NCBI GenBank assembly: GCA_945910425.1
Contig: CAMDYM010000005.1
Location: 1-56,794 of the forward strand
Direction: 5' to 3'
DNA: 56,794 nt
Source of the DNA: an uncultured Candidatus Melainabacteria bacterium
Lineage (GTDB): Bacteria > Cyanobacteriota > Vampirovibrionia > Gastranaerophilales > Gastranaerophilaceae
This document shows positions 24,820 through 39,313 of the stretch, one piece after another. A model generated the notes under the pieces. It had not been told where the DNA came from. It saw only the letters and a list, made by a program, of their open reading frames with translations, and did no database searches. The position numbers were made by a program, and so were the translations under genes. Position 1 is the stretch's first letter. Each line of letters begins with the position of its first letter.

Positions 24820-24873
24820 AAAACTCCTAAAATACCTAAAACTAGTAGTCTGTGGGTCAATTTTAGGAGTTTT
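24820..24873 (-). terminator. Terminator of the phage-like operon
   Basis: AAAACTCCTAAAAT (24820-24833) and ATTTTAGGAGTTTT (24860-24873), a perfect 14-bp stem with a 26-base loop. On the minus strand it is followed by a short T run, directly after the last phage-like gene. The long loop is unusual for a simple terminator. Confidence 0.6.
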
Positions 24874-24891
24874 GACTGTTATTTTTACGGT

Positions 24892-26220
24892 TTAGTCTTC
24901 TTCGATAAATATATGATTTCCGTTTTTAGTTATCCAACGACCCTTTTTGCCGTTTGTATTATTTTTTTGTTTTTTTGGTTTTAACGCTTCTACTTCTTTT
25001 TTAGTCGGTAATCCGATTTTTCCTATTTGTGCATGTATTTCTTGTTTATTAGTTTCATAATCTTCTGGGGACATATCCTCAAATTCTTCCATTGTATAAA
25101 TTTTTCTACTATTTGTTTTGGGATTTTTGTAATCCTCATAATTATTAGGAGAAACATCTTCGTAAACCCGACCTTTCAACACCCCCGGTTGCGCATCTTC
25201 TACCGATTGTGCGTAAAAATCATTTACGGCTTCTTCTATTTTATCCATTGAATGATATGTTGCTCCTAATAATTCTGTGGTCAACTGAGAATTTAGCCAC
25301 TTGGCAGGGTTGTTTTTTTCTAAATAATCATACATAATAATATTGGGTTCTAACTTGAGCGCTCGGTTTTGGTTCGAGTATGCAGGGTTAGAGCCTACTT
25401 CTTTTATTTGATAAAAATCATACCCTGTTTGATTTGAATTTTTTCTGATTATATATTCAAATTCTTTATTCTTATAGGTATTATATAATTTATTGAAATA
25501 ATCCGAATCTAAACGAAAAGGTTTATCATTACTGTATGTATTACTTTTGGCTGTTTTAATTTGTTCGGGAATTTTCGGTATCATTTTAGAATTATGCAAT
25601 TTAATTTCACCAGATTGAGAACCGGGAATATTTATTTGCCCGAGAAAAGATGAATCAATTTTTCTATCTTGTAAATAATTTTTATAATAATTCTTACTCA
25701 TCGCTCTTAATTTTTTCATCTCATCTAATGACATATTATTTCCTGTTTGAAAATTCTCTAAAATTTTAGCATGATTAAGTTTTTGCAAATAACTTATAGA
25801 TGTACCTGTCAATCCTCCGATACCAAAACCAAAGACAGCATCTTGTATTGAACTTGCCAAAATATTTTTATCTTCCAGCAACCCTCTGCCTGCACCAAAA
25901 ATTGAGGAGGCAAGCGCTCCGTCTATCGCACCTGTTAATGTATCTTGGACTATCTTTTTACCAAACTTTTTCTCCAATGCGGCAAGCCCTACTTTTCCAG
26001 CGACTCTTGTTCCGGCGCCTACGGCTCCTATAGGCGCAAGCATCGCAGCGGCTTCAATCGACGCACCTAAAACACTTTTACCGACAGTCCGATAAAACTG
26101 TGCATCAGCTTGCTTGTTATACTCATTTCCCGCTTGTTTTATTAATCTTGTTTTTTCTTCAGGAGTTAAATTATTATTTTCAAGTTCTTTTCTCAACTCT
26201 TCAAATATATCGCGTTCCAT
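24892..26220 (-). CDS. Phage structural or internal protein, 442 aa (unknown)
   Basis: The N-terminal 150 residues are Ala/Gly-rich with hydrophobic helices (SIEAAAMLAPIGAVGAGTRVAGKVGLAA; ASSIFGAGRGLL; DAVFGFGIGGLTGTS), typical of virion ejection proteins that insert in membranes. The middle is polar with no motif. Near the C terminus MEEFEDMSPEDYETNKQEIHAQ resembles the end of the scaffold-like protein of the same cluster. The tail KGRWITKNGNHIFIEED is a short W-x-T-x-NG-x-H motif. It is the last gene of the operon. Function is inferred from position and composition. Confidence 0.55.
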   Translation of the reverse strand: MERDIFEELRKELENNNLTPEEKTRLIKQAGNEYNKQADAQFYRTVGKSVLGASIEAAAMLAPIGAVGAGTRVAGKVGLAALEKKFGKKIVQDTLTGAIDGALASSIFGAGRGLLEDKNILASSIQDAVFGFGIGGLTGTSISYLQKLNHAKILENFQTGNNMSLDEMKKLRAMSKNYYKNYLQDRKIDSSFLGQINIPGSQSGEIKLHNSKMIPKIPEQIKTAKSNTYSNDKPFRLDSDYFNKLYNTYKNKEFEYIIRKNSNQTGYDFYQIKEVGSNPAYSNQNRALKLEPNIIMYDYLEKNNPAKWLNSQLTTELLGATYHSMDKIEEAVNDFYAQSVEDAQPGVLKGRVYEDVSPNNYEDYKNPKTNSRKIYTMEEFEDMSPEDYETNKQEIHAQIGKIGLPTKKEVEALKPKKQKNNTNGKKGRWITKNGNHIFIEED

Positions 26221-26239
26221 TTTATTTTCCTTTCTTTAC

Positions 26240-26470
26240 TTATTTTGAAATAATCAAACAATCATAAATTTTATCAATCTTGTCTTTCATCTCAAAAAAC
26301 TGTCCTTTTAAATCATCTAAACTATTCAATGTTGCAAACCGTTTTTCAACATCTCTTATTATTTCCCTGTGCTTCTTTTCAAGCTGCTCGGGCGTTACAA
26401 CAATCCTTTCCTGAATCAAAAACACCAAAACCACAACAATTATCGGTGCATAATATATAAATTGTTCCAT
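26240..26470 (-). CDS. Small phage protein: one membrane helix plus coiled coil
   Basis: 76 aa from the ATG at 26470, chosen because AAAGGAGAAAATTTAAA precedes it; an ATG ten codons upstream has no such site. Residues 3-22 (FIYYAPIIVVVLVFLIQE) form a membrane helix, the rest is a charged coiled coil (HREIIRDVEKRFATL... DKIDKIYD). This layout fits a Rz-like spanin or a small phage membrane protein of lysis modules, but no diagnostic motif is present. Confidence 0.6.
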   Translation of the reverse strand: MEQFIYYAPIIVVVLVFLIQERIVVTPEQLEKKHREIIRDVEKRFATLNSLDDLKGQFFEMKDKIDKIYDCLIISK

Positions 26471-26528
26471 TTTAAATTTTCTCCTTTCAAAACTTTGCAA
26501 GTGGTAAATATTCTTTTTACATTTACCC

Positions 26529-27818
26529 CTATAAAACTATCGGCCAATAAAAATCAACAAGATAACTTGCAGCATCAAACGGGTGCGACAGAAACTTAAG
26601 CTCTTTTATCTGCTTAATTTGAGTGTATGTCGGCACATCTATTTTTGAAGACCCTTCAAGATAGCGAAGATTATAAATGTTATATAAAAGCTTTTCACAT
26701 TTTGGCGAAACGTATAAACCGACTTCACCGTTTGCATTACGAACTTTAGCGTTAAAAGCGGCAACACGATTTTTTATCGGCGGATTAAAAGATTTTATCT
26801 TGATTTCGACCTCATATCCGTAAGATTCAAGTGTTTTTTTGATAATTACATAATTCGTATATTCACTAGTACAGCTTCTGTTATCACCTGAAGCGTCACC
26901 GTTCACAATAATTTTTCCTTTATGTTCGGGATATCTGTTATAAAATTCCTCGCAAGTTTTGGCAGTTGTTGTATTTTCTAAAACTAACTCATCAAAATAA
27001 AAAACCTTATCATCTGTTTTATGCGCCAAAACCCAAGCCATAGGATCAACGTTAAAGTCACAACTGAGATGAACGTCCAAATCTTTTTGATATTTAATCT
27101 CTCGGACATTTTCATTTGTGAAATCCTTTACTACCAAATTTGTTGAATAATCACCTGTTTTTCCCATCACAAAAATATCATAGTAACTTTTATCATAAAG
27201 TTTTTTCAATTCATCACAAAACCCTTCGGGCAGATGTATATTTTGAGTCGTCGGCGCACAAATAACCCTATAATTTGGCGCAGGGTTTTCAAAAAAAGTT
27301 TTATATATCCAGCCTTTTTGGAGTTCGGGGTTTGTGTGACCAAAAATCCTGTAAGTAAAATTTTTCCATGTTTTTTTCTTTTTCTGGCGCATTCTGGCTA
27401 ATAACATTTTAAAAGTTTCATAAGGAACATCAGACATCTCTTCAATTTCAACAAACCCCAAGTTCAAGGATTTCAACTTATTAGGCTCATCAAAATGTCT
27501 GAAAAGAATCTCCGAGCCGTTTTTAAAAACCAGTTTTTGCTCGGCACTAACCCATTTATAATCAACTTTATCAATAAACCCGATACTGTCTAAATGCTCA
27601 AAATAAGTTTTCAATGTAGTGTCACGCACTAAAGTATAAGTCTGAGCACCAACCAACCCCGTAACGCCCGGGAATTTCAATGCAAGCAAAACCCCGAGCA
27701 AGGCTCCGGCAAATGTTTTGCCGGAGCCGTACCCGCCTTGATATACCGCGACATCAAGAGAATATTTGTGAGGTATTTCTAAAAACTTTCGCTGAGCATC
27801 CAATAATTTATATTTCAT
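26529..27818 (-). CDS. terL: Phage terminase large subunit
   Basis: 429 aa from the ATG at 27818 (AGAGGT upstream); an extension to 27881 overlaps the portal gene and lacks a site. The packaging ATPase has Walker A GGYGSGKT (28-35) and Walker B LGFVEIEEMSD. The RNase H-like nuclease has DFNVDPMAWVLAH and VNGDASGDNR. Length and layout fit short terminases of podovirus or PBSX type. It powers DNA packaging through the portal encoded 25 bases upstream. No frameshift or missing motif. Confidence 0.92.
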   Translation of the reverse strand: MKYKLLDAQRKFLEIPHKYSLDVAVYQGGYGSGKTFAGALLGVLLALKFPGVTGLVGAQTYTLVRDTTLKTYFEHLDSIGFIDKVDYKWVSAEQKLVFKNGSEILFRHFDEPNKLKSLNLGFVEIEEMSDVPYETFKMLLARMRQKKKKTWKNFTYRIFGHTNPELQKGWIYKTFFENPAPNYRVICAPTTQNIHLPEGFCDELKKLYDKSYYDIFVMGKTGDYSTNLVVKDFTNENVREIKYQKDLDVHLSCDFNVDPMAWVLAHKTDDKVFYFDELVLENTTTAKTCEEFYNRYPEHKGKIIVNGDASGDNRSCTSEYTNYVIIKKTLESYGYEVEIKIKSFNPPIKNRVAAFNAKVRNANGEVGLYVSPKCEKLLYNIYNLRYLEGSSKIDVPTYTQIKQIKELKFLSHPFDAASYLVDFYWPIVL

Positions 27819-27843
27819 ATTTAGCACCTCTTTTGAAAGCTTT

Positions 27844-29523
27844 TTACTTTTTAACCACTTGAGTTTGAGCAGCATTTTCATCCGTCAAAAAATTATTTGC
27901 ATTCTCAATCCCGTATTGTTCCATTGCGAATTTGAAACACTCAAGCCAATCAATGCGCTGCGCAACAGTATCAATTTTTGTAAATGATTGAATAACTTCA
28001 AATAATTCTTTTAACTTTGATTTTCTTTCAAAAGTTGCCTTCCTGTCACCGTATCGATAAACATAATTAGCGTTTCTTACATTGTCATCAACTTCAACAA
28101 AGAAAATTTTTCCTCTGTTGTTTGTCATAATCGACTCTTTACCAAGTTTGAAGTTTGAGATAATCTCGGCTGTTTTTTCAACCATAGGAACAATAACCTT
28201 ACGGTTTATTGCCTCAAGAAGCATATTTAAACGAGCTTCCTGCCCATTAACCGAATAATTAATCTCGGTTGCTGTTCTGTCAAGATTTTGAACATTTCCT
28301 GCCATATTTTTAAATATTCCGGTAGCACTTTCAACAGTTGTTTTAAAGTAATTAAGGAAATCCCAGCCTTGCATCGCTTTGTCAAACGAAATCGGCGTTG
28401 GTACAGATGTCATCAAAGATGCATCATATTCAATAATTTTACCCGGACGAACTTCCTGTTGACCTTTAAAACAGCCTTTTGGCGCTAAATACGGAGGGTT
28501 CATCATCAATGCTAGTGCATCTAATTGTTTATTCAAAATTGTTGAAGAAATATTATTCAAAATCAACGCAACCCTTAACGGAGAAATTCCGCGTCCTGTT
28601 GAAGGACATTCAATAATATTTGCGTGGATAAACGGATTAATTATAAACGGATTATCTTCAAATCTTATCAAAACACTTCTTCCAGCAATAACAATCAACT
28701 TGTTTTTTAAGACTTCACCTGTTTCAAGCTCAATATCTCCCCAGTATTCAAGTACTTCAATTTTTCTTTCCGAAACTGTTTTATTAGAATTTTTGTAACT
28801 CTTTCCTGCCACCACTCCTTTCAAGACTTCCAATTTTTCTTCGTTTAACATATTATTTGACTTGTTTGACCTAATTTCATCTAACGTTTGATATGTTCTG
28901 TAAATTTTCGGGCAGCTGTCCCAATTAGAAGCTTCCGTTCTGTCAAATACAAAGTCTTCGTATCCGATAAATCTGACTTTTGCGTTATCGTAAATCATTT
29001 TATCTTCCACAACAAAAGTATCTGTAGTATTTTTTAAAATTTGTTCATCCAAACTCAACGCGCGACGGGTTTTTCTAAATTTTGTTTCCCAACCCACAAA
29101 TAATGTAACCTCTCCTGTTTCAACAACCGAATCAATGATTTTTTCCATTTCATCTTCAATATTCATTGCTTCAAAGGTTTTAACAAGCATGGCTTTTTGC
29201 ATATTGGCAAATTTTTGTGTTTCAAAATCAGTTCCCTCAACATCAAACATTCCATCAGGATGAGAATAAAGATTTTGCACAATATGAGATTTTAAAGTCT
29301 GCGCCAGTTCATATATATCCGGAAGCTGAATCCTGCAATCCCAACCGTTAACGGCAGGAATATCAGAACTGTAAATTGCATGTTTTATAAGCCTGTTATC
29401 AGACAATTGTGAGCTTCTTTCGTTTTCGTAATAATCATATTTACTTATGATATTACTTGTCAAAAACTGTTCTTCGATATAATTTATCGAAGTTTTGTCT
29501 TCTTTTTTTATTATATTATTCAT
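27844..29523 (-). CDS. Phage portal protein (podovirus type)
   Basis: 559 aa. The dodecameric head vertex through which DNA passes. Recognisable features are the N-terminal helical wing (LPDIYELAQTLKSHIVQNL), the stem/clip region NPFIHANIIECPSTGRGISPLRVALILNN, NPPYLAPKGCF, and the C-terminal NLDRTATEINYSVNGQEARLN helix typical of P22/T7-type head-tail connectors. CGAGGT precedes the ATG. It sits between the GNAT gene (3-base gap) and terL. Confidence 0.85.
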   Translation of the reverse strand: MNNIIKKEDKTSINYIEEQFLTSNIISKYDYYENERSSQLSDNRLIKHAIYSSDIPAVNGWDCRIQLPDIYELAQTLKSHIVQNLYSHPDGMFDVEGTDFETQKFANMQKAMLVKTFEAMNIEDEMEKIIDSVVETGEVTLFVGWETKFRKTRRALSLDEQILKNTTDTFVVEDKMIYDNAKVRFIGYEDFVFDRTEASNWDSCPKIYRTYQTLDEIRSNKSNNMLNEEKLEVLKGVVAGKSYKNSNKTVSERKIEVLEYWGDIELETGEVLKNKLIVIAGRSVLIRFEDNPFIINPFIHANIIECPSTGRGISPLRVALILNNISSTILNKQLDALALMMNPPYLAPKGCFKGQQEVRPGKIIEYDASLMTSVPTPISFDKAMQGWDFLNYFKTTVESATGIFKNMAGNVQNLDRTATEINYSVNGQEARLNMLLEAINRKVIVPMVEKTAEIISNFKLGKESIMTNNRGKIFFVEVDDNVRNANYVYRYGDRKATFERKSKLKELFEVIQSFTKIDTVAQRIDWLECFKFAMEQYGIENANNFLTDENAAQTQVVKK

Positions 29524-29526
29524 TTT

Positions 29527-30045
29527 TTACCTCGTTTTGTAGTAGTAATCCCTGTATAGCGAATAAACCTCTATATCCTGAGGTTTTCCGCATCTCAGCG
29601 TTTCATTTTTCAGCGTTGCTTCATAAACAAATCCGCTGTTTTTTAACAAAGTCCGAACCCTGTGATTTTCAGGATAAATCTGTGCTTTAATCTTGTATAA
29701 ACCTAATTCATCAAAACACTTCTTTAAAAAAATCTTTGCGCTATATCGGGTAAAACTTCCCCAAGCACATCTGTCAAAACATGTTGTTAATTCCGCAGAG
29801 TATAAGTATTTTTCATTTCCCGTAAAATTATCCAGATACACAAATCCCATGAATTTGCCGTCAATATCCGTGATAACCCGAAAATACGTTGATTTTTCGT
29901 TAATAAGAATGGTTATATTACATAAGAAAGGAGGCGAAAAATCATCCCAGATGTACTTATAATACTTGCGAAAACATCTTTCAACATCAGGCATATAGCG
30001 CAAAGTTAGAAGATAATTTGCACTAAGGTTTATGAATTTACACAT
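29527..30045 (-). CDS. GNAT-type acetyltransferase of phage
   Basis: 172 aa. The C-terminal half is a GNAT fold: AKIFLKKCFDELGLYKIKAQIYPENHRVRTLLKNSGFVYEATLKN is the classic motif B (acetyl-CoA-side strand, Asn, then xxLLKNxGF). The acetyl-CoA P-loop Arg/Gln-x-x-Gly-x-Gly/Ala is weak here (CFDRCAWGSFTRYSAK). Small GNAT genes often sit beside portal genes in podoviruses; their substrate is not established. It overlaps the upstream 117-aa gene by 8 bases, so the two are translationally coupled. Confidence 0.75.
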   Translation of the reverse strand: MCKFINLSANYLLTLRYMPDVERCFRKYYKYIWDDFSPPFLCNITILINEKSTYFRVITDIDGKFMGFVYLDNFTGNEKYLYSAELTTCFDRCAWGSFTRYSAKIFLKKCFDELGLYKIKAQIYPENHRVRTLLKNSGFVYEATLKNETLRCGKPQDIEVYSLYRDYYYKTR

Positions 30046-30391
30046 TTTTAACTTTTATAAATTTTATGTAATTATTACCGTTCACAAATGAGTCCGTTTC
30101 GCCTTTGAGAAGGCTTTCACGCTCAGAATATTTTGTTCCCAAAAATCCTTCAGCCTGAACTCCTGTAATATAAGACTTTGTTTTACTGATTTTGTTAATT
30201 ATTTCAAAAACCGCTTCTTTTGAAAATAAAAGCTCAGATGGAACTTTTTTGATATCTGTTATATAATTTGTCTTAACAGACTTGTTTGACTCTACTGATT
30301 TAATAAACTCTTTTTCAATTTTTGTTTTCATAAGCTTATTATAGGCAGTGTCATTTAATAATAATCTTTCTATTTCTTTATTTTCTTTCAT
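30038..30391 (-). CDS. Unknown phage protein, 117 aa
   Basis: Lys-rich, helical N-terminal half (residues 1-40), then a mixed region with KSYITGVQAEGFLGTKYSERESLLKGETDSF. No family recognised. Position between TerS and the GNAT/portal genes suggests a packaging accessory or head protein. It overlaps the GNAT start by 8 bases and follows TerS by 19 bases. Confidence 0.6.
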   Translation of the reverse strand: MKENKEIERLLLNDTAYNKLMKTKIEKEFIKSVESNKSVKTNYITDIKKVPSELLFSKEAVFEIINKISKTKSYITGVQAEGFLGTKYSERESLLKGETDSFVNGNNYIKFIKVKNV

Positions 30392-30410
30392 TGAAAATAC
30401 CTTTCATAAA

Positions 30411-30845
30411 TTAAATTTTGTCATCATCAAGATTTGAAATAGTAATAATTTTAGCTTCTTTATACTCATCTTCGCTTTTTGAATTAGAAAATCCAAGGTA
30501 TTTACAAAGACTTTCCAAAGCCTTTAACCCTGCTGAGGAATCTCTTAATTTAACTTTCCCCGTCGGGTTTCCTTCTTTATCAAGAATGTCTTCTGTTTCA
30601 AGCGAAAACTCGGCTATTTGTAAAAGTTTTTGAATAACATAACCTTTCTGCACGCTTAAAGAATCAATTTGTAACTTTAATTGCGATTTTATGGCATGGA
30701 TTATGTAATCTTTTTGTAAAAGTTCATTTGCAAATGCATTTAAATCTTTGCACTTGTAACCTGCTTTTTTTGCTGACAATTCACCGTCAAGCGTCATTAT
30801 ATACTCGTTTACAAACCTTTTTTGTTGTTGTGTTAATTGTTTCAT
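30411..30845 (-). CDS. terS: Phage terminase small subunit
   Basis: 144 aa. The N terminus TQQQKRFVNEYIMTLDGELSAKKAGYKCKD is the Terminase_2-type HTH for recognising the packaging site; the following YIIHAIKSQLKLQI helix and the central oligomerisation segment fit the family, as does the acidic C terminus (DLDDDKI). A TATAAT lies 15 bases upstream of the ATG on the minus strand and no ribosome-binding site is visible, hinting at an internal promoter with a very short leader. Confidence 0.85.
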   Translation of the reverse strand: MKQLTQQQKRFVNEYIMTLDGELSAKKAGYKCKDLNAFANELLQKDYIIHAIKSQLKLQIDSLSVQKGYVIQKLLQIAEFSLETEDILDKEGNPTGKVKLRDSSAGLKALESLCKYLGFSNSKSEDEYKEAKIITISNLDDDKI

Positions 30846-30868
30846 CTTGTTACATTTCTTATTATAAT

Positions 30869-30970
30869 TTGTTTTTTTCTCAAATAATTTGTATAATGAA
30901 CATGCTATTTATATTTCGGCTAGTGTAAATCTTAACAGGGGGGAATGAAAACGACTTCCTGTTTTTTTTT
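30869..30970 (+). ncRNA. Candidate small RNA on the strand opposite the phage genes
   Basis: A plus-strand promoter TTGTTT (30869-30874), 17 bases, TATAAT (30892-30897), is followed by an intrinsic terminator: AACAGGGG (30934-30941) pairs with TTCCTGTT (30956-30963, two G-U pairs), then a T8 run. The predicted RNA runs from about 30904 to 30970, about 65 bases. All genes around it are on the minus strand, so this terminator has no coding gene to end. Confidence 0.4.
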
Positions 30971-30973
30971 GCC

Positions 30974-31612
30974 CTAATTTCTGAAAAGATTTATTACGGG
31001 AGCATTTCCGGTTGATGCCGCAGTCTTTGAACGCAAGTTTGCAAGCGCTTCTTTGTACATGCTCATCCAATATGAAAATCTGTAATATTGAGGATTACCT
31101 TTTAACCTTAAGCATGTTCCGTAAACCAATAACTGCTCGGCAAACGGTTCAGGAATGAGTGAAAAATCCGTCGCGTTTTCAAGTTCAAACTTTTCGTTAT
31201 TTGAAGTATCACTTGCACAAAATCTTGTGTAATAAATAATATCAACCGTTACATCCTTATCAAATTCAGGTAATAATAACTTATCCGAGAAAGATGAATA
31301 TGTACCTGATTTTGCAGATTTTGACAAAAACGGTTCAAAATCCTCAGTAAAATCATACCGCTTTCCATCGATAAACAAGTATTTTATTCTTCCGTTTACA
31401 CTGTTTGTAACTTCTGTTGTATGTGCAGGAAGCTTAATTTTTGTTCGTCTGAGTAAAAAATTCCAACCTTCGGCATTACAAATTTCTTTGTTGATAATAT
31501 TTAAGATATTCATAATTCTTTTATGGTCGTTTTTTACAAGCTCGGCAAATGCATTTACTTTTTTGTAATTTAACTCAAGCAAACATCTGTTTATTAGTTC
31601 TAAATAATTCAT
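30974..31612 (-). CDS. Head-tail adaptor (P22 gp4-like)
   Basis: 212 aa from the ATG at 31612, chosen because AAAAAAGGAG lies a few bases upstream; an ATG 21 codons earlier has none. MNYLELINRCLLELNY and later IINKEICNAEGWNFLLRR match the start of podovirus tail-accessory proteins that dock under the portal; the C terminus FAEQLLVYGTCLRLKGNPQYYRF is also typical. It would close the portal after packaging and seat the tail hub. Confidence 0.65.
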   Translation of the reverse strand: MNYLELINRCLLELNYKKVNAFAELVKNDHKRIMNILNIINKEICNAEGWNFLLRRTKIKLPAHTTEVTNSVNGRIKYLFIDGKRYDFTEDFEPFLSKSAKSGTYSSFSDKLLLPEFDKDVTVDIIYYTRFCASDTSNNEKFELENATDFSLIPEPFAEQLLVYGTCLRLKGNPQYYRFSYWMSMYKEALANLRSKTAASTGNAPVINLFRN

Positions 31613-31684
31613 AGTATCTCCTTTTTTCGAAAAGTTCGGATAAGAGAAAAGTCTTACCCGAACTTTACCTGACAATTTGTCGGG

Positions 31685-32362
31685 TTACTTGATTAAGCCT
31701 TGTCTTAATTGTTCCATTATGGCTTTTTCGTTTTGAGTAAATTCCTCACCACTCATATTACCGATATCCTCACGAGTAAAGATCCTATTCATATTACCGT
31801 CATAAGAACCGTTTTGAGCGTAAGACGTCAATTTTTTCTTTGCGGCTGCGTTCTCGTCATTCAATGTCTTTTCGTATGCGGATTTTTTCAAATATTTATC
31901 AACCGCAGAATTTTCCAATTTTTCTACAAGCTGAGATATTTGAACTATTTCATCTTTGTCCATATTTAAACCCTTGATATAATTCAAGACATCAACTCTT
32001 CCCTCACCGTCAAAAAATCCCGGACGTTCTTGATTGAACATCTCCATTGGACTTTGAGATGGTAAAGCCTGTTGAACAGACGAATCAGGAACAACCTCGC
32101 CGGTTTTTAGTGAATTTTTGTAGTTGTTAATCTGTTGAGCCTTCCGAGCTAATTGTACCAGCAAATATTGTCCTTGTTCTTGTGATATTACACCTTGACC
32201 AACAAGATTTTTCAATTTTTGAAAATCTGCGCCAATTGCCTGTTCTGCCTGATAAAACATATCATTATATCCCGTTTGCGGGTTTTGTTGCGGACTCACG
32301 GTCTGCGATGAAAAAGCATTTTGTAATTGCGGTGGAACTGCACCACCCGGTTGATTTTGCAT
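31685..32362 (-). CDS. Scaffold-like phage protein
   Basis: 225 aa, Gln/Asn-rich with a disordered N terminus (QPGGAVPPQLQNAFSSQTVSPQQNPQTGY), helical middle and a charged C terminus. Position close to the capsid gene and this composition suggest an internal scaffold. The C-terminal RIFTREDIGNMSGEEFTQNEKAIMEQL resembles a motif near the end of the 442-aa protein at 24892, so both may be recruited to the capsid interior by the same signal. No direct family match can be claimed. Confidence 0.55.
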   Translation of the reverse strand: MQNQPGGAVPPQLQNAFSSQTVSPQQNPQTGYNDMFYQAEQAIGADFQKLKNLVGQGVISQEQGQYLLVQLARKAQQINNYKNSLKTGEVVPDSSVQQALPSQSPMEMFNQERPGFFDGEGRVDVLNYIKGLNMDKDEIVQISQLVEKLENSAVDKYLKKSAYEKTLNDENAAAKKKLTSYAQNGSYDGNMNRIFTREDIGNMSGEEFTQNEKAIMEQLRQGLIK

Positions 32363-32367
32363 AAAAC

Positions 32368-32616
32368 TTATTCTCCTTCTTTATTTGGCATATTTTGCAT
32401 GTATTGTACGGAAATTTCTATTACATCATCTATAAAGCTTGACAAAAGTATTGATATAATGTTTTTTACAAAAGTCGGGAAAGGTAAATTTTTTAAAATA
32501 TAATCTATTGCAAGTTTCTTTTTTGCTTGACCTTGCCCGCTTCCTAATTGAGTTTCCGCTATTTTTACAGCTTTTTTTGCCAATTCTTTTATTTGTATTT
32601 TTACATTTTTAAACAT
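32368..32616 (-). CDS. Holin-like small protein
   Basis: 82 aa. KAVKIAETQLGSGQGQAKKKLAIDYILKNL resembles the conserved C-terminal helix of LL-H-type holins (x-E-x-x-x-G-x-G-x-x-K-K-x-x-A). FVKNIISILLSSFIDDVIEISV is a weak amphipathic membrane helix. No clear N-terminal transmembrane segment is seen, unlike classic members. With the amidase at 35262 it could form the lysis module, although the two genes are separated by head and tail genes. Confidence 0.4.
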   Translation of the reverse strand: MFKNVKIQIKELAKKAVKIAETQLGSGQGQAKKKLAIDYILKNLPFPTFVKNIISILLSSFIDDVIEISVQYMQNMPNKEGE

Positions 32617-32698
32617 AAAAAACCTCTTCTTATTTAATAAAATGTACCCTCAAACACTACTCTTGGGATGAGAGTACATTTAAAAAGCTAAAATTTGA

Positions 32699-33667
32699 CT
32701 AAACTGTCGGCTCAGTTGGTTGAGTCGGTTCAGTAGTTGTTGTTGGTTCGGTAGATGTTGTTGGAGTTGTTGGATTTGTCGGGGTTGTTGGGGTTGTAAC
32801 AACTTCTTCTTCTGAAGCAGAAACAATCATTTTAGCTAAAGCTTTAGGCTGAACGGTTTTAGCACCGTACAGGTATAAACCTCTGACTAAATCAGAGAAA
32901 CTGTCTTTATCTCTAAGACTTTCAATTTTTGCAAGTTGAGAAGCAAATGTAATAGCATCGTTTGTACCTGCAAGAACGTAGTATTTTCCGTCTACATCAG
33001 TTAAGTTTGTACTGACTAATACGTCCATGCCTGCAATTCTTCCGATTGCACCTTCTCTTAAGGTTTCATCGGCAACTTTATATGCTGAAATAAATTCAGG
33101 ACTTTGTAATAAGTAAGCTTCAATATCAGGATTGATTACAACCCAAGGTCGAACGCCTGCGTATACTGCATCTGAATTTTTCAAAGCTAATGCAAGTTTT
33201 ACAAAGTTTGAATAAATTGTTTTTGTATCCAATGTAACAGGAGAAGTTTCTGAACCTACGGTATTAACTTCGGTTACATCGGTATGAAGTCCTAAAAGGT
33301 ACGAATCCTGAACTACTTCAATTGCTTTTTTAGCGTTTGTCAAATGAGCTTCCATGATATCTGAATTTGCTTGAACCGCAGATGCATCATCAATCTTAAA
33401 CGCAAAGAACTTTTTCTGATCAATAACTAAATCCTGAGAAGTTGGAGTTAGAGATGAATATGATAAATTATCACTTGTTAAAGTTGAAACCGTTACAGCT
33501 GCAGGTGTAATAATTTTTACTGTATCACCCTGATTTTTAATTTCGCCTTCCCAATTTTTGTTAACACACTGCATCATAACGCAGTTTTTTTCTAACATTT
33601 GATTCAATTTTTTACTCCACACTTGTGGAATAAATGCTGAATAACTTGATTTTGCTGTTTCTGACAT
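32699..33667 (-). CDS. Major capsid protein with Thr/Pro-rich tail
   Basis: 322 aa, the likely HK97-fold coat protein. AFIPQVWSKKLNQMLEKNCVMMQCVNKNWEGEIKNQGDTVKI is the usual N-terminal arm of P22-like coat proteins; KKFFAFKIDD, RPWVVINPDIEAYLL and AGMDVLVSTNL are the E-loop, spine and A-domain-like parts. Residues about 290-322 are almost only Thr, Pro, Ser and Glu, from short tandem repeats in the DNA (32701-32800). The tail is not needed for the fold and probably lies on the capsid surface. Confidence 0.85.
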   Translation of the reverse strand: MSETAKSSYSAFIPQVWSKKLNQMLEKNCVMMQCVNKNWEGEIKNQGDTVKIITPAAVTVSTLTSDNLSYSSLTPTSQDLVIDQKKFFAFKIDDASAVQANSDIMEAHLTNAKKAIEVVQDSYLLGLHTDVTEVNTVGSETSPVTLDTKTIYSNFVKLALALKNSDAVYAGVRPWVVINPDIEAYLLQSPEFISAYKVADETLREGAIGRIAGMDVLVSTNLTDVDGKYYVLAGTNDAITFASQLAKIESLRDKDSFSDLVRGLYLYGAKTVQPKALAKMIVSASEEEVVTTPTTPTNPTTPTTSTEPTTTTEPTQPTEPTV

Positions 33668-33725
33668 TTTCTTTTCCTTTCCTTTTCAAAAACTGTAAAC
33701 AAACATAAGTGGTGATGGTTTTTAT

Positions 33726-35249
33726 TTAATCATCATTATAAATTTCTCTGAATTGAAGCCCGATGATTGCGCAATTATCTTCAATCTCTCGACCTTCTAC
33801 ACAAATTTGTATTGAGTAATTACTTCCGCAAATTTCAGCTTTTTCCATAGCACTTGAAGATATAGGCCAAACGGGAACTTCCGAGTCATTAGAGTTCCAG
33901 CAATATTGAGGATTACCTGTTTCATCATCTTCAGGTGCCCACATAAAATGGGTATAATGTCTTGCGTAAATTAACTCTTTATCATCTCCGTACTCGCTAT
34001 CGTAATCCTTGTACAAAGAAAAATTAAACTTGTTATCATATAAATCATCCAATACAAAATAAAATTCATCTATAATCTTGCGATGAAGAACATTCCCCAA
34101 AGATAAGAACGGTGACTTCCACATAAAATCAATCGGTTTGCCGTTAAATGTTGTCCCGTAAAATTCACGATAAATTTTACCTTCATTATCGGCTGTAACA
34201 ACATAAGAATTAAACATACAAGCTGTTGTTATTTTTTGCGGCACAACCCTTTTATACCAAGCTCTGTTTACATAATCGTTTACCCAGATAGTTTTATAAT
34301 ACGAACTATCTAAATACGGGAAAAAATATAACACTTGATTTTTATTTTGATTATGAAGAGCAAATACATTTTTCATACGTGAAGTATCAAAATTATTAAA
34401 TTCTTCCCTGATATTAACCGAGATTTCAGAACCTAATCTTATCTGATTCAATTCTCCGACTTGTTCCAGTGCATAAATTCCATTACTTAAAAAGAACTGT
34501 TTGTTATCAACATTGATAATCGAACCTTTTGCAATAGTTCCTTTATCCGCAAAAAGAGTAATAGAAAAATCAGACGGATTTGAACCTGTCAATAAATAAA
34601 CTCTTTCATGCTTATACACCGCAAGATAGTCTTTATAAGTATGCATAGCAGTAATATCTGCCGTATCAGTGTGAAAATCATTAATATAACCCGCATCATC
34701 TGCCGTTGTAAAATCATTATATGTACCTAATGCGGAATAATATATCGTAGAATCTTTCGCGCACCAGACTCTCCCTTTATAAACAGTTATACAATCAGGA
34801 TATAAAGCATTTCCACTGCTATCTTTCAAATTACAATCAACAACTTCATAAGCTTCGTTATTTTTAACATAAAACATCGCATCTGATTCTGTAGAAATAA
34901 GAAGTCCTCTTATAAACGGAGCAAACAAAACACGTTTTCCAGTTAATGTTTTTTCGAGTAAAGTTAAACTGTCATCAAATGTTGAATAAACATAAATTTT
35001 ACCTGAAATTGTTGTAATAACAAGCTTACAAATATCATCAGACTCAATTTCACACATGCCTGTAATTTCTTCGGCGACAGGCAATTGAACAAGAAGAGTA
35101 TTTCCTTTTTGTTTAATAATACCCTTATTATTATAAACTTCTACATTCTTTGAATCTGCCCAAAATATCGTCTTCGGATTCAATCCCAATTCTGTTTTTG
35201 TGGAAGCCTGATTAACTCCACCGGATAAATCAAAATAATTAACATCCAT
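33726..35249 (-). CDS. Podovirus tail hub / stabilisation protein (P22 gp10-like)
   Basis: 507 aa, almost all beta strand, with the typical start DLSGGVNQASTKTELGLNP and repeated blade-like units (ITTISGKIYVYSTFDDS; CITVYKGRVWCAKDSTIYYSALGTYNDFT; YLAVYKHERVYLLTGSNPSDFSI; KQFFLSNGIYALEQVG), consistent with a beta-propeller tail hub. It would bind under the adaptor. The C-terminal third is less typical and could carry host contact. It sits 12 bases after the amidase gene. No separate fibre gene follows. Confidence 0.7.
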   Translation of the reverse strand: MDVNYFDLSGGVNQASTKTELGLNPKTIFWADSKNVEVYNNKGIIKQKGNTLLVQLPVAEEITGMCEIESDDICKLVITTISGKIYVYSTFDDSLTLLEKTLTGKRVLFAPFIRGLLISTESDAMFYVKNNEAYEVVDCNLKDSSGNALYPDCITVYKGRVWCAKDSTIYYSALGTYNDFTTADDAGYINDFHTDTADITAMHTYKDYLAVYKHERVYLLTGSNPSDFSITLFADKGTIAKGSIINVDNKQFFLSNGIYALEQVGELNQIRLGSEISVNIREEFNNFDTSRMKNVFALHNQNKNQVLYFFPYLDSSYYKTIWVNDYVNRAWYKRVVPQKITTACMFNSYVVTADNEGKIYREFYGTTFNGKPIDFMWKSPFLSLGNVLHRKIIDEFYFVLDDLYDNKFNFSLYKDYDSEYGDDKELIYARHYTHFMWAPEDDETGNPQYCWNSNDSEVPVWPISSSAMEKAEICGSNYSIQICVEGREIEDNCAIIGLQFREIYNDD

Positions 35250-35261
35250 AATAATAACCTC

Positions 35262-35753
35262 TTATAATTTTTCTCTGTACCAACGAACTTTTGTTCTGAT
35301 AAAGCTTCCTACATCTTCTTTTGCAACCCAAGGATACGGAGGAAGATAAATTATATCTATTTTTCCGCTGCTTGTTGTTTTAGGATTAGCTCTGCCAAAC
35401 TCATAATGAGTTAAAACTGTCTGGGAATTAACTCCGAGATTATACTTTTGACAAAGCTCGGCACATAATCTCATACAAGCCTCAAACTGAACTTTACCGA
35501 TTGGAAAATTCCCGACAACAGATTTTGATTTAAAGCCGAACATAGCGCACATACAAACCCCTATAGAGCCGGTATTACCGCCGCCTGTATGCGCGGCATA
35601 ATTTCCGTCATTACAATTATTGTTATCTTCAGGTTTGTATTTTCCTTTATGTATCTGCCCGTCAACATCAACAAGATAATGATAAAATTGTTTTTCAAAG
35701 TCACCGGGGTAATACCTGCCGGCACTCCAGTGTAAAATAATTCTTTTAACCAT
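35262..35753 (-). CDS. N-acetylmuramoyl-L-alanine amidase (endolysin)
   Basis: 163 aa, Amidase_2/PGRP fold similar to T7 lysozyme. Zinc ligands are His8 (ILHWSAG), His116 (LTHYEFG) and Asp133 (GKIDI). FYHYLVDVDGQIHKGK and YAAHTGGGNTGSIGVCM are family hallmarks. It cleaves the bond between MurNAc and the stem peptide. No signal peptide, so release needs a holin-like partner (32368 is the candidate). It is the second gene of the cluster. Confidence 0.9.
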   Translation of the reverse strand: MVKRIILHWSAGRYYPGDFEKQFYHYLVDVDGQIHKGKYKPEDNNNCNDGNYAAHTGGGNTGSIGVCMCAMFGFKSKSVVGNFPIGKVQFEACMRLCAELCQKYNLGVNSQTVLTHYEFGRANPKTTSSGKIDIIYLPPYPWVAKEDVGSFIRTKVRWYREKL

Positions 35754-35767
35754 AAACGATTATTACC

Positions 35768-35971
35768 TCATTTCACTTTCCATCTCGGGTGTGAAGCCAT
35801 ATATTTAGCTACAGCATTCACACGGTTTCTGGCATTTAAACCAATTAGAATTGAGGAAATGTGCGTCTGAACCGTTCGTTTGGAAATATTCAATTTTAAT
35901 GCTATTTCTTTATCCGTGAATCCGCGAGCAAGCAGAGTCAATATCTCTAATTTTCTCGGCGACAATTTCAT
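35768..35971 (-). CDS. Stand-alone LuxR/GerE-type HTH regulator
   Basis: 67 aa from the ATG at 35971; GTG at 35974 is the only in-frame alternative. The whole protein is one GerE domain: LSPRKLEILTLLARGFTDKEIALKLNISKRTVQTHISSILIGLNARNRVNAVAKYMAS. No receiver or ligand domain. It is the first gene of the phage-like operon and its ATG overlaps the TGA of a 10-codon ORF (TGATG), so translation is probably coupled. AAAGG lies upstream. It may control the operon itself. Confidence 0.9.
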   Translation of the reverse strand: MKLSPRKLEILTLLARGFTDKEIALKLNISKRTVQTHISSILIGLNARNRVNAVAKYMASHPRWKVK

Positions 35972-36003
35972 CACTCGACCTTTAATCTTTTAATATATTC
36001 CAT
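35971..36003 (-). CDS. 10-codon leader ORF coupled to the HTH gene
   Basis: ATG-GAA-TAT... encodes MEYIKRLKVE and stops with TGA inside TGATG, the start of the LuxR-type gene. CGGAGG lies upstream. Between that site and this ORF is a second ATG directly followed by TAA, a start-stop pair. Such arrangements can regulate initiation at the downstream gene; translation is not proven. Confidence 0.4.
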   Translation of the reverse strand: MEYIKRLKVE

Positions 36004-36408: not shown

Positions 36409-36414
36409 TCTTGC

Positions 36415-36464
36415 ATTTTATAGAAATTTTAATAACTTGCCAAAATTTTTACTCAATTTACAAT
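36415..36464. promoter_or_regulatory. Overlapping divergent promoters sharing a palindromic -35
   Basis: Plus strand: TTGCCA (36437-36442), 16 bases, TACAAT (36459-36464), six bases, ATG of the kinase (leaderless). Minus strand: TTGGCA (36438-36443), 17 bases, TAAAAT (36415-36420). The -35 boxes are two faces of TTGCCAA, so polymerase binding in the two directions should be mutually exclusive. Confidence 0.55.
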
Positions 36465-36470
36465 AAAATT

Positions 36471-38189
36471 ATGGGAAACATTTTACTTATTTCAGAAAAT
36501 GATTCTATTTTAGACAGATATAAAAACTTGTTAAATAAAATTCCTTTCAAGTTTAATTCCTGCTGCAATCAAACATCGGTTTTGGATTTAATAGAAGTTG
36601 AACCACCAGATGTTTTTTTGATTGATGAAAAAATCGAATCTTTAAATTTAAATCTTACAATCAAAAAGATAAAATCTCAGCTTGATAATGCCCAAATTTT
36701 ACTGATTTCTGACGGTTCTGTTACAGATGAAGATACAACAAAATATATTTCAGGTTTTATCTTAAATACGTTTTCTGATGAATTAATACTTTCAACAATA
36801 AATTCTCATATTAAAACAAAAGAAAAATTAGACATTTTATCGGGCAAAAACAAAGACTTGGCTGACAGCTTATACAGACTGAATGTTTTATATAATACAA
36901 GTTCTCAATTTGCGGGAACACTTGATATTAAAGAACTTCTGAATTACATGACAGAAGGACTTGATAAATCTCTAAGCTTTGATTTAGCCTGCACTATATC
37001 ATTCGGGTTTGAAAATGAACCTGTTTTGATAGTTAATTCACTTTACGACATCTCGGAAGAACTTATGAGCGCATTAAAACTTCGTGCAATACTTAATTAC
37101 AAATCACTTTTTGAAAACTCAACTCCGCCGTTTGAAATCAACGACAATGAATTAAAAATAATCAAAAATATTAAAAATCCGAATAACAAATTTACCTTCA
37201 CGATTTTTCAATACGATAATATGTTTGCTCCGATTGATTTAGGAGATAACTTTTTTGGGTGTATCGAAATTTTTAAAGAAAACTCTTTTTCAACGGATGA
37301 CGCAACATATTTTCAAACGATTGTACAACAAGTATCGTTGCCGTTAAAAAGCGCAGGATTATACAAAGAAATTATCGAAAAAAACGAAGAACTTGAAAAA
37401 CTTGAACGCGTTAAATCAGAATTTATTTCAATCGTATCACATGAATTAAGAACACCGCTAACCCCGATTAAAAATGCATTAAGTATCCTTTCAAGCGGAA
37501 GATGCGGGACTTTAGGCGAAAACGCCGTAAAATTTATTGATATGGCAAAAAGAAATGTCGAAAATCTTACAAATATAATTAACGATATTCTTGATATCAA
37601 TAAAATCGAAGCAGGGAAAATGGATTTTAATTACAAATTAATGAATATTCACTCTGTTATTGAAAACGTTAAAACCAATTTTGATTGTGTTGCAAAAGAA
37701 CATGAAATAATTTTCAACGCCAAAGAACAAGAAAACCTTCCTGATATTTACGCAGACTCTCAACGTCTTGGTCAGGTGTTAACCAATCTTGTATCAAACG
37801 CAATAAAATTCACTCCGCGCGGCAAATCAATAACAATTCAATCCGAATTAAAAAATGCAAACGAGATAAGCACAAATCCGTATTTTGAAAAAGAATTAAA
37901 AACCTTAAACGGGAACTACATCGTAGTAAGCGTAATAGACGAAGGAATAGGAATTAAAGAAGAGAATTTACTAAAAGCATTTGATAAATTTACTCAAATC
38001 GAAAACTCGCTATCCCGTAAAGTTGGTGGAACAGGCTTAGGTTTACCGATTGCAAAACAGCTTATAAAAGCACATAAAGGCACTATTTGGTGTGACAGTG
38101 AAGAAGAAAAAGGCTCAAGCTTCCACTTTGCACTTCCTGTTATGACAGAAGCCCTTGAGGCCCAAGAAATCCATAGGAAAATATTATGA
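36471..38189 (+). CDS. Sensor histidine kinase with degenerate receiver and GAF domains
   Basis: 572 aa from the ATG at 36471; an upstream ATG (36411) precedes the promoter -10 box. Residues 1-115 are receiver-like: Asp52 of LIDEK is kept, but the acidic pair is Ser-Glu and the conserved Lys is Asn99, so it is probably a pseudo-receiver. A GAF-like domain spans about 135-295. HisKA has His324 in SHELRTPL; the HATPase has DEGIGIKEENL and GGTGLGLPIAKQ. No membrane helix, so it senses inside the cell. It overlaps dxr by 4 bases (ATGA). Confidence 0.9.
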   Translation: MGNILLISENDSILDRYKNLLNKIPFKFNSCCNQTSVLDLIEVEPPDVFLIDEKIESLNLNLTIKKIKSQLDNAQILLISDGSVTDEDTTKYISGFILNTFSDELILSTINSHIKTKEKLDILSGKNKDLADSLYRLNVLYNTSSQFAGTLDIKELLNYMTEGLDKSLSFDLACTISFGFENEPVLIVNSLYDISEELMSALKLRAILNYKSLFENSTPPFEINDNELKIIKNIKNPNNKFTFTIFQYDNMFAPIDLGDNFFGCIEIFKENSFSTDDATYFQTIVQQVSLPLKSAGLYKEIIEKNEELEKLERVKSEFISIVSHELRTPLTPIKNALSILSSGRCGTLGENAVKFIDMAKRNVENLTNIINDILDINKIEAGKMDFNYKLMNIHSVIENVKTNFDCVAKEHEIIFNAKEQENLPDIYADSQRLGQVLTNLVSNAIKFTPRGKSITIQSELKNANEISTNPYFEKELKTLNGNYIVVSVIDEGIGIKEENLLKAFDKFTQIENSLSRKVGGTGLGLPIAKQLIKAHKGTIWCDSEEEKGSSFHFALPVMTEALEAQEIHRKIL

Positions 38190-39313
38190 ATATAAAACGA
38201 AAAATAAGTATATTAGGTTCAACAGGTTCAATAGGAACCCAAGCGCTTGAAGTCATAGAAAAACTTCAGGATAAATTTGAAATAATAGCACTTGCAGGCG
38301 GAAATAATGTTGAACTTTTAAAACAGCAAGCCTTGAAATTCAAACCTAAATACATATGTACCAATAAAGAAATAAAAATTGACGGAATAAAAACACTTCA
38401 CGGTACAGAAGGGTTAGAAGAAATCTGTTCAAACAAAGAAAATGATATAATCCTTGTTGCCGTATCAGGTAAAATCGGATTAAAACCAACCCTGAAAGCA
38501 ATAGAAAACGGAATAGATATCGCACTTGCCAACAAAGAAACACTTGTTATGGCAGGGGATATTGTCATGAGCGCAGCGAAAAATGCCGGAGTAAAGATTA
38601 TTCCTGTTGATAGCGAACACTGCGCAATCCACCAATGCATAAAAGATATCACGCAGGTTGAAAAACTTATTATAACAGCAAGCGGCGGACCGTTTTTACA
38701 TAAAACAGTCGAAGATATGAAAAACGCAACGGTAGATGAAGCTCTTGCCCACCCTCGTTGGAACATGGGCAGAAAAATTACCGTTGACTCTGCAACTTTA
38801 ATAAATAAAGGTTTGGAAATAATTGAAGCACATCATCTTTTCAACATGCCTTATGATAAAATTGATGTTGTTGTTCACCCGCAAAGTATTGTGCATTCGG
38901 CAATTGAATACAAAGACGGAAGCGTAATCGCACAACTTGGCTTACCAAGTATGCATATTCCTATTCAATACGCAATCTCGTATCCTGAGCGCTTTGAGGG
39001 AATTAAATCTAAAAGTTTCAGTTTTTCAGAAATTGCACGACTTGATTTTGAAAAACCCGATTATATCAAATTCCCGGGGGTAAAAATGGCATATCAAGCG
39101 GGCAGAGGGGGAGGAAGTGCAACTGTATGTTTTAACGCCGCAAATGAAGAAGCAGTTTTTGCTTTCCTAAACGGTAAAATCAAGCTTTATGACATCTATT
39201 CAATAGTTGAAAAAATGATGTCATCTCATACAGTTGTTAAAACGCCGTCAATCGATGAAATTTTTGCGATAGATGAAGAAATAAGAATAAAAACAAGAGA
39301 ATTAATAAAATAA
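38186..39313 (+). CDS. dxr: 1-deoxy-D-xylulose 5-phosphate reductoisomerase (IspC)
   Basis: 375 aa, the second step of the MEP isoprenoid pathway, NADPH and Mg2+/Mn2+ dependent. LGSTGSIGTQALEVI binds NADPH, VDSEHCAIHQC holds the metal Asp and Glu, TASGGPF and HPRWNMGRKITVDSATLINKGLE form the active site. The ATG overlaps the kinase stop (ATGA), so expression is translationally coupled to a signalling protein, an unusual partner for dxr. No other MEP gene is adjacent. Confidence 0.96.
   Translation: MNIKRKISILGSTGSIGTQALEVIEKLQDKFEIIALAGGNNVELLKQQALKFKPKYICTNKEIKIDGIKTLHGTEGLEEICSNKENDIILVAVSGKIGLKPTLKAIENGIDIALANKETLVMAGDIVMSAAKNAGVKIIPVDSEHCAIHQCIKDITQVEKLIITASGGPFLHKTVEDMKNATVDEALAHPRWNMGRKITVDSATLINKGLEIIEAHHLFNMPYDKIDVVVHPQSIVHSAIEYKDGSVIAQLGLPSMHIPIQYAISYPERFEGIKSKSFSFSEIARLDFEKPDYIKFPGVKMAYQAGRGGGSATVCFNAANEEAVFAFLNGKIKLYDIYSIVEKMMSSHTVVKTPSIDEIFAIDEEIRIKTRELIK

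Follow-up and report, generated by a model that had tools for sequence, protein, structure and literature searches.

Three lineages of gene transfer agents (GTAs) are recognised, and their terminase large subunits (TerL) are very divergent, with 14-20% identity among them (PMC9662315). RcGTA and BaGTA are domesticated caudoviricete heads that descend vertically with the host, sometimes from several loci; for BaGTA, the tailless or short-tailed particles of early reports are at odds with later descriptions (PMC9662315). FpGTA of the gut bacterium Faecalibacterium has been shown by experiment to package host DNA fragments of 8.4-8.9 kb (PMC12946183). These and the other published systems compared below are described from excerpts of the papers cited. 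The locus considered here lies at positions 24,820 to 36,003 of a stretch of 56,794 nucleotides (the window) from an uncultured Candidatus Melainabacteria bacterium of the Gastranaerophilaceae (assembly GCA_945910425.1, contig CAMDYM010000005.1, positions 1 to 56,794, forward strand). Its gene content and relatives indicate that it very probably encodes a domesticated phage particle, and probably a GTA in the strict sense. The evidence tips slightly towards a particle that carries effectors, here toxin-like proteins sharing a tag of about 80 residues. The whole reading, a vertically inherited, domesticated, short-tailed GTA-like particle of Gastranaerophilaceae carrying polymorphic effectors, is likewise narrowly favoured.

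Like RcGTA and BaGTA, the locus combines domesticated caudoviricete head genes, vertical descent and, in some species, several loci, although its gene content points to a short tail, its host is of another bacterial lineage and tagged effectors go with it (PMC9662315). The likeness to FpGTA is closer, since that agent, also from a gut bacterium, has a 10.5-kb cluster with terminase small subunit (TerS), TerL, portal, scaffold and capsid genes and has been called most likely podovirus-like (PMC12946183); a statement of the first-pass annotation of the window, that described GTAs are not of podovirus type, is thereby superseded. FpGTA differs in its phylum and in having some structural and lysis genes in a second operon, and neither toxin-like cargo nor a tag is mentioned for it in the excerpts (PMC12946183). 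Among toxins, the nearest relatives of the cargo are the MuF toxins, the polyvalent proteins and Bxa of Bacteroides (PMC5576092, PMC5512222, PMC11699363). MuF toxins resemble it in that they link a toxin domain to a head protein whose gene is close to those for portal and terminase, and that small neighbouring open reading frames (ORFs) are proposed as immunity genes; they are, however, fused to the MuF domain and belong to temperate phages (PMC5576092), whereas here the tag is mostly C-terminal, the cluster is domesticated and most effectors are encoded away from it. A MuF domain occurs in one of the 57 tagged proteins too, and the window's own effector has no match to it. Polyvalent proteins of phages and conjugative elements, for which virion packaging and injection are predicted by their authors, have PBECR and LPD3 domains in common with the cargo (PMC5512222), although the effectors here are shorter, have one common tag and in some cases immunity-like neighbours. 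Bxa, too, is a family of polymorphic toxins that a gut bacterium carries on prophages along with immunity proteins, but it is an ADP-ribosyltransferase on a prophage, and the excerpts of that report mention no domesticated particle (PMC11699363). Within the open-access literature of PubMed Central, no paper was found that joins 'gene transfer agent' with Gastranaerophilales, nor, among the titles and abstract openings listed, one on a GTA with polymorphic-toxin or immunity-linked cargo; subscription papers and preprints lay outside the search.

The cluster consists of 14 ORFs on the minus strand from 35,974 down to 24,892, all open and closely packed: the portal and TerL ORFs overlap at 27844-27881, and the ORF of a GNAT acetyltransferase overlaps that of a 117-aa protein. 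From position 35,974 the order is helix-turn-helix (HTH) protein, amidase, hub, capsid, holin, p225, tube-like protein, TerS, 117-aa protein, GNAT, portal, TerL, a small BhlA-like membrane protein and a variable 442-aa protein. Host genes flank it, a histidine kinase gene and dxr on one side and corC on the other. ORF and profile analysis thus bears out the first-pass annotation, which had seen 14 open, tightly spaced particle genes on one strand between host genes. Profile matches are firm for TerL, portal, capsid, TerS, amidase and holin and weaker for tube and hub; the annotated tail hub is upheld by a match to a virion structural PHROG, and the annotated adaptor has only a weak tail-tube match below the cut-off (Table 1). 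The same annotation had found no control gene, yet a GerE-type HTH gene stands first in the cluster beside the divergent histidine kinase gene. Its internal-protein candidate (24892-26220) is variable, toxin-like cargo and not a core gene, and the GNAT gene inside the cluster and the toxin-like cargo are additions to it; the GNAT gene is kept within the cluster in 36/36 loci of the genus.

Integrase, attachment sites and replication genes, the marks of a temperate prophage, were not found with the cluster. No tyrosine integrase (PF00589) was detected on the window's contig (C5), serine integrases being outside the search, and in the same genome PF00589 matches over the cut-off lie on contigs C22, C69, C2 and C56. 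The 20 largest of at least 60 direct-repeat families between 22,500 and 39,500 have 71-83% identity, and no near-identical flanking repeats were seen among them. Profile searches of the cluster ORFs gave no convincing match to a replication gene. Within these searches the lack of integrase and replication genes reported before stands, and the integrase with attachment sites just outside, once named as the finding that would speak against a domesticated particle, was not encountered.

Among 46 genomes of the genus, the capsid gene was found in 45; TerL was found in 35 of 36, once partial and once in two pieces. The genome G007 has neither. Strain-specific presence, which had been considered, is rejected by the capsid count. 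The dxr gene is present in 46/46, at a distance of no more than 10 kb from the capsid gene in 28/46; in the remaining 17 genomes with a capsid gene away from dxr, some loci reach a contig edge and others come from a clade whose cluster is split. The kinase gene adjoins the cluster in dxr-linked loci of the genus, and corC stands on the other side in the window's own clade; the corC-side flank varies between clades, and the host sites that the cluster occupies in other genera are different ones. The proposed comparison of synteny is thus borne out on the dxr and kinase side, and for corC within the clade.

Gene content and order are stable. Thirty-six loci of the genus, each of at least 12 kb, were fetched around capsid matches, so that the capsid count of 36/36 is by construction; hub, p225, tube, TerS, GNAT and portal were recognised in 36/36, amidase, holin and the 117-aa gene in 35, TerL in 29, HTH in 28 and the small membrane protein in 23. 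The recognised genes have the same relative order in 20/20 loci fetched from 12 other genera of the family, with some genes unrecognised and TerL absent from the fetched stretch in three. At the order level, 157 of the 383 genomes sampled gave a capsid match at E 1e-40 or below, and presence in distant members, suggested earlier as a check, is thus seen; more distant families have some cluster genes at separate loci. The cluster is mostly single copy. Of the relatives kept from the genome collection, 47/80 are titled Melainabacteria, Gastranaerophilales or Cyanobacteria and most others just bacteria; loci L031-L110 overlap partly with the G genomes, so that their counts are not independent. 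Three records with the cluster (L032, L080, L083) are titled Muribaculaceae or Fusobacterium and are probably mislabelled or misbinned contigs, and one locus (L059 / G031:C12) has TerL and neighbouring cargo genes twice in tandem, either a real duplication or an assembly effect.

Capsid and TerL genes lie on different contigs, each with its own neighbours, in G002, G004, G012 and G016, and TerL is probably apart from the head genes in G017 and G030. In these genomes TerL is accompanied, where they are seen, by the small membrane protein and a 715-aa protein (f715). Such splits make it likely that, in some species, the element cannot package its own whole genome. In one clade (L235-L239, L060, L071, L075), TerL follows, by eye, an alanyl-tRNA synthetase-like gene. 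f715 (window 20453-22600, beginning MGLAASQARFL), a possible further component of the particle, has no family match; its relatives stand downstream of TerL in many species at different host sites, and it stays with TerL in the split clade.

The core genes are constrained. Median ratios of nonsynonymous to synonymous substitution (dN/dS; only pairs with dS 0.15-1.5) are 0.059 for TerL, 0.101 for capsid, 0.118 for TerS and 0.123 for portal, which are near those of the host genes dxr (0.092), corC (0.093) and the kinase (0.110), f195 being at 0.245; TerL is the most constrained gene of the cluster. Intermediate values were obtained for the small membrane protein (0.138), hub (0.157), amidase (0.165) and tube (0.181), and higher ones for GNAT (0.241), holin (0.249), p225 (0.276), the 117-aa gene (0.279) and HTH (0.359); the 442-aa effector reaches 0.534 (8 pairs). 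Selection for function, proposed earlier from the lack of frameshifts, is thereby supported for the core. Walker A, Walker B and nuclease motifs of TerL, scored as relaxed patterns and alignment columns, are present in 151/151 relatives of at least 74% identity. The tree of seven cluster genes (without TerL) has 10/22 splits in common with that of rpoB for 25 of the 46 genomes, those with rpoB and four named cluster genes, where shuffled labels give a mean of 0.24 and a maximum of 2 (Mantel r 0.78, 0/2000 permutations). It has 12/22 splits in common with dxr, whereas rpoB and dxr have 6/14 between themselves (17 genomes, r 0.61); TerL alone and rpoB have 5/13 (16 genomes, r 0.52, 0/2000 permutations). 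To judge by location, substitution ratios and trees, the cluster is vertically inherited, fixed in location and under purifying selection. Of the features by which GTAs are recognised, caudoviricete-derived proteins, full endogenisation, often at several loci, and mostly vertical co-diversification with the host are found here; packaging of mostly random host DNA, inability to package the whole element and delivery of the DNA to other cells (PMC9662315) are predictions in this case. Between the two possibilities left by the first-pass annotation, the domesticated particle is favoured, and a prophage that had lost one end is rejected because the cluster is near-universal, descends vertically and has its genes intact.

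Related phage sequences are more distant. A quick tree of 102 TerL rows (every fourth row of at least 74% identity to the window's TerL, 45/47 rows under 60%, matches of at least 380 residues), with groups defined beforehand by identity and some long branches flagged, places the rows of at least 74% on one side of a branch (support 74) and those under 60% in another group (support 93). Viral contigs of up to 47.6 kb have TerLs 52-57% identical to the window's, and the top-ranked matches in published phages are 26-30% identical. A 40-kb prophage-like contig of G002 (contig 51) has integrase-like and DnaB-like ORFs, by eye. The earlier note held a full phage in a close relative, with the same genes and replication genes as well, to count against domestication; with a TerL only 55% identical, this contig is a cousin and not the same element. 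Two phage-like contigs of that genome (L381-L384; G002:C51, C41) have TerLs at this identity.

The variable gene at 24892-26220 is the first sign of effectors. The nearest species (L031), whose TerL is 95-96% identical, holds a counterpart at the same locus. Identity between the two in successive steps of 40 residues is 92, 62, 80 and 42% over residues 1-160, falls to 15-22% over residues 161-280 and returns to 58-85% over 281-440. This looks like a polymorphic toxin with a swapped domain, and the effector is read as one because the middle domain has been exchanged between closest species at one locus. Its N-terminal part recurs in other members of the genus with other middles, and its C-terminus aligns with the C-termini of unrelated proteins whose genes, in other species, have been inserted between those for portal and TerL or behind TerL. 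This common end, the tag, comprises a motif of the form FTREDIGxMSxEEFxxNExxI, after which comes either of two endings. The only Pfam match of the window's effector is LPD3 (residues 166-249, E 0.007, below the cut-off).

From 62 non-redundant tagged ORFs, 57 remained after removal of five p225-like ones. Pfam families among them are DUF6973 (18), PBECR1 (4), Lipase_3 (4), Mbeg1-like (4), GH108 (3), LPD3 (3) and MuF (1), some proteins matching two. The set thus shows a common module joined to diverse toxin domains, as in polymorphic toxins, and the module would serve in trafficking. One locus (L315, G103:C50) holds four tagged effectors in an array, of which three are nearly alike at the N-terminus but differ in the middle domain, and some effectors (L225, L232, L307, L314, L411-L413) have the tag near the N-terminus rather than the C-terminus. 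Among the strong tag places listed, 20/117 are no more than 15 kb from capsid or TerL on one contig and 97/117 are elsewhere, some of which could be nearer than they appear in fragmented genomes. The window's genome has three effector loci: that of the window, one cut by a contig end and a GH108 gene split over two ORFs. G007, which has no cluster, has one tagged ORF beside an ORF in another frame that looks, by eye, to be the rest of the same gene.

A possible address for the tag is given by p225, the probable scaffold, which ends in a motif resembling those of the effectors. Scaffolds can bind the coat through their C-terminus. A profile built from 57 unique p225 C-termini has matches at E < 1e-3 to p225 proteins, and every other match at this level is a cargo-type ORF; profile matches to p225 reach E 1e-16. 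p225 has no match in Pfam, NCBIfam or solved structures, and alignments of the effector and p225 against solved structures returned only unrelated proteins (E 0.012 or worse). Among 13 viral loci of other types with a recognised capsid gene, a tag-like match (E < 0.05) ends a protein one or two ORFs upstream of it in six: L334 (6e-10) and L336 (3e-7), where one ORF intervenes in each case, L188 (4e-4) and, more weakly, L190 (0.003), L185 (0.01) and L142 (0.023). A locus with a cut capsid gene (L330) gives 4e-11, and no other tagged protein was seen in these viral loci. That p225 is a scaffold whose end the effectors copy has support of this kind, the strong cases being few and on partial contigs.

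Tags also accompany another particle. Eight genomes with tags and no strong capsid match were examined, six of genus g29 and two of g31. All six g29 genomes have tagged genes within a different phage-derived head cluster (L405-L410, from G135, G136, G197, G143, G184 and G113), with an HK97-type capsid and a DUF2460 tail gene. In L406, matches to Phage_capsid (3e-27), a terminase and a tail tube are joined by a weak one to a scaffold (PF06810, 1.8e-6, below the cut-off); relatives of these proteins with 55-95% identity are found in four other g29 loci, and the six stretches include portal in 5/6 and the DUF2460 gene in 4/6. In g31, a tagged gene adjoins a TerL of the present type in L411, and L412 shows the end of one. 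Tags therefore go with phage head genes more generally, and the long-tailed g29 cluster may be another domesticated particle.

Several observations weigh against an effector-carrying particle with a scaffold-like tag. Tag alignment A3, which contains the window's effector, matches in 46/46 genomes of the genus, but in nine (G003, G005, G006, G010, G022, G027, G060, G064, G066; four of them below or near 90% complete) the best match is only p225-grade, worse than 1e-13. At the order level, effector-grade tags (E < 1e-13) were found in 109/157 genomes with a strong capsid match versus 37/226 without; this association speaks for a link between tag and particle, but its statistics ignore shared ancestry and it was scored on at most 14 candidates per genome. 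The upstream tag-like match is strong in only two of the six viral loci and absent in 7/13 (L138, L140, L141, L143, L180, L181, L183; L140 and L141 look like one sequence), and the phage lineage nearest the cluster (TerL 52-57%) has it in 0/1 tested (L143). None of five g29 scaffold-like proteins tested matches the tag, so that scaffold mimicry is not the whole docking story; a scaffold origin of the tag in g29 was looked for in these five and not found. Some effectors have putative immunity genes beside them. A lysozyme-inhibitor-like (LprI-like) ORF adjoins 5/5 GH108-like ORFs, with eight LprI-like ORFs among 3767; of these five loci, two seeded the profiles, one copies a seed and two are mutually orthologous, and 3/8 LprI-like ORFs have no GH108 nearby. 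In g29, the locus of a sixth GH108-like ORF (L409) lacks an LprI-like ORF, and both g29 LprI-like ORFs (L406, L408) lie away from GH108, so that the pairing of muramidase and inhibitor comprises few independent loci and one exception. Small secreted or membrane neighbours are only modestly enriched, at 38/59 tagged genes versus 84/199 controls (p = 0.003). No receptor-binding protein was identified in the cluster. The particle itself, its packaged DNA, transfer and toxicity are predictions from sequence.

An unlikely but serious alternative is that the cluster is a plain GTA and that the tagged proteins serve simply as enzymes of ejection, entry or lysis, variable between species and without an antagonistic role. 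Phages often carry internal lysozymes, PHROGs labels some tagged proteins endolysin or tail lysozyme, the core cluster alone shows the features of a GTA that can be read from sequence, and the nine genomes with only p225-grade matches would then be no anomaly; PBECR1 RNase-like and lipase domains, domain swapping at one locus and the many dispersed copies nevertheless fit conflict better than entry. That the tag is unrelated to the particle, another machine loading or exporting the tagged proteins and the likeness to p225 being an old shared motif, is improbable. It would account for the 37/226 genomes with tagged effectors and no strong capsid match, for the g29 scaffolds and for the distance of most strong tag places from the cluster, but not readily for the strength of the p225 matches, nor for tagged genes within the podovirus-like cluster of many species and within a second head cluster in g29. 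A pure toxin-injection particle, its DNA serving as ballast for ejection pressure and gene transfer playing no role in its upkeep, is quite improbable: large tag repertoires in some genomes (the largest with at least 14 places) accord with it, whereas the constraint on TerL, with its motifs kept, and the nine genomes without an effector-grade tag do not. A defective prophage or phage satellite, still mobile and repeatedly acquired, is highly improbable, for the varying corC-side flank, the other host sites and the prophage-like contig of G002 are outweighed by a mostly single-copy, near-universal cluster congruent with rpoB, by the lack of tyrosine integrase and near-identical repeats in the searches above, and by the confinement of all 36 viral loci with a p225-type scaffold to contigs of at most 33.8 kb.

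Table 1. Features of the particle cluster and its neighbours in the window
Feature	Positions	Strand	Evidence
Histidine kinase gene, divergent from cluster	36411..38189	+	HisKA, HATPase_c
Host dxr, marker of fixed location	38186..39313	+	DXP reductoisomerase domains
LuxR/GerE-type HTH protein, 68 aa, first cluster gene, candidate regulator	35768..35974	-	GerE 7.6e-17
N-acetylmuramoyl-L-alanine amidase (lysis or entry)	35262..35753	-	Amidase_2 6e-14; phrog_5867 endolysin 8.6e-31
Tail hub / virion structural protein, 507 aa	33726..35249	-	phrog_3287 1.3e-17
Major capsid protein	32699..33667	-	phrog_267 6.2e-51
Holin, LLH type	32368..32616	-	phrog_6918 3.3e-10
p225, probable scaffolding protein	31685..32362	-	conserved C-terminus in 25-sequence alignment
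Docking-like motif, p225 C-terminus	31688..31789	-	hidden Markov model from 57 unique p225 C-termini
Tail tube / adaptor-like protein	30974..31675	-	Pfam Tube 0.0027, below cut-off
Terminase small subunit (TerS)	30411..30845	-	Terminase_2 2.7e-17; phrog_51 1.6e-19
Conserved 117-aa protein	30038..30391	-	conserved in genus loci; without good family match
GNAT acetyltransferase, inside cluster	29527..30045	-	Acetyltransf_3 7.2e-8
Portal, short-tailed phage type	27844..29523	-	SU10_portal 3e-19; phrog_332 3.7e-31; solved portal 9k09 8.2e-10
Terminase large subunit (TerL)	26529..27881	-	Terminase_3 2.4e-20; phrog_2 2.8e-33
Small BhlA-holin-like membrane protein	26240..26500	-	Holin_BhlA 0.029, below cut-off
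Polymorphic-toxin-like effector, 442 aa	24892..26220	-	hydrophobic glycine-rich N-terminus, swapped middle, tagged C-terminus
Swapped middle (putative toxin) domain, effector residues 161-280	25381..25740	-	identity steps versus nearest species
Effector C-terminal tag: scaffold-like motif and terminal segment	24895..25155	-	row of tag alignment A3; E 9.7e-28, own-genome A3 search

The GTA-like particle carrying effectors might work as follows. The LuxR-type regulator and the neighbouring kinase would switch the particle on in some cells, and p225, as its position and relatives suggest, would scaffold the capsid around the portal. Effectors from the cluster and from dispersed loci would enter the procapsid through their p225-like tag, and TerS and TerL would pack DNA into the head; as the element lacks replication genes, this DNA would probably consist of pieces of the host chromosome. 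After lysis of the producer cell, presumably by holin and amidase, the particle would attach to related cells and eject DNA and effectors (muramidase, lipase, RNase-like and DUF6973 proteins); recipients with the matching immunity protein would survive and could keep the DNA, and others would be harmed. The particle may thus be both a gene-sharing device and a weapon between bacteria. A tentative extension, which goes further than the evidence favours, is a standing particle throughout the family that delivers interchangeable antibacterial proteins together with DNA, its tag addressing effectors encoded genome-wide, its immunity genes making transfer kin-selective, and the same kind of tagged arsenal apparently serving an unrelated long-tailed particle in g29.

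If true, this would be a new lineage of domesticated phage particles across a family of common, largely uncultured gut bacteria and, within the literature searched, the second podovirus-like domesticated particle after FpGTA. It would also provide a simple addressing rule for particle-borne protein toxins. Why bacteria pay for GTAs is an open question. Coupling of DNA delivery to toxin-immunity pairs would restrict the benefit to kin, an idea that can be tested.

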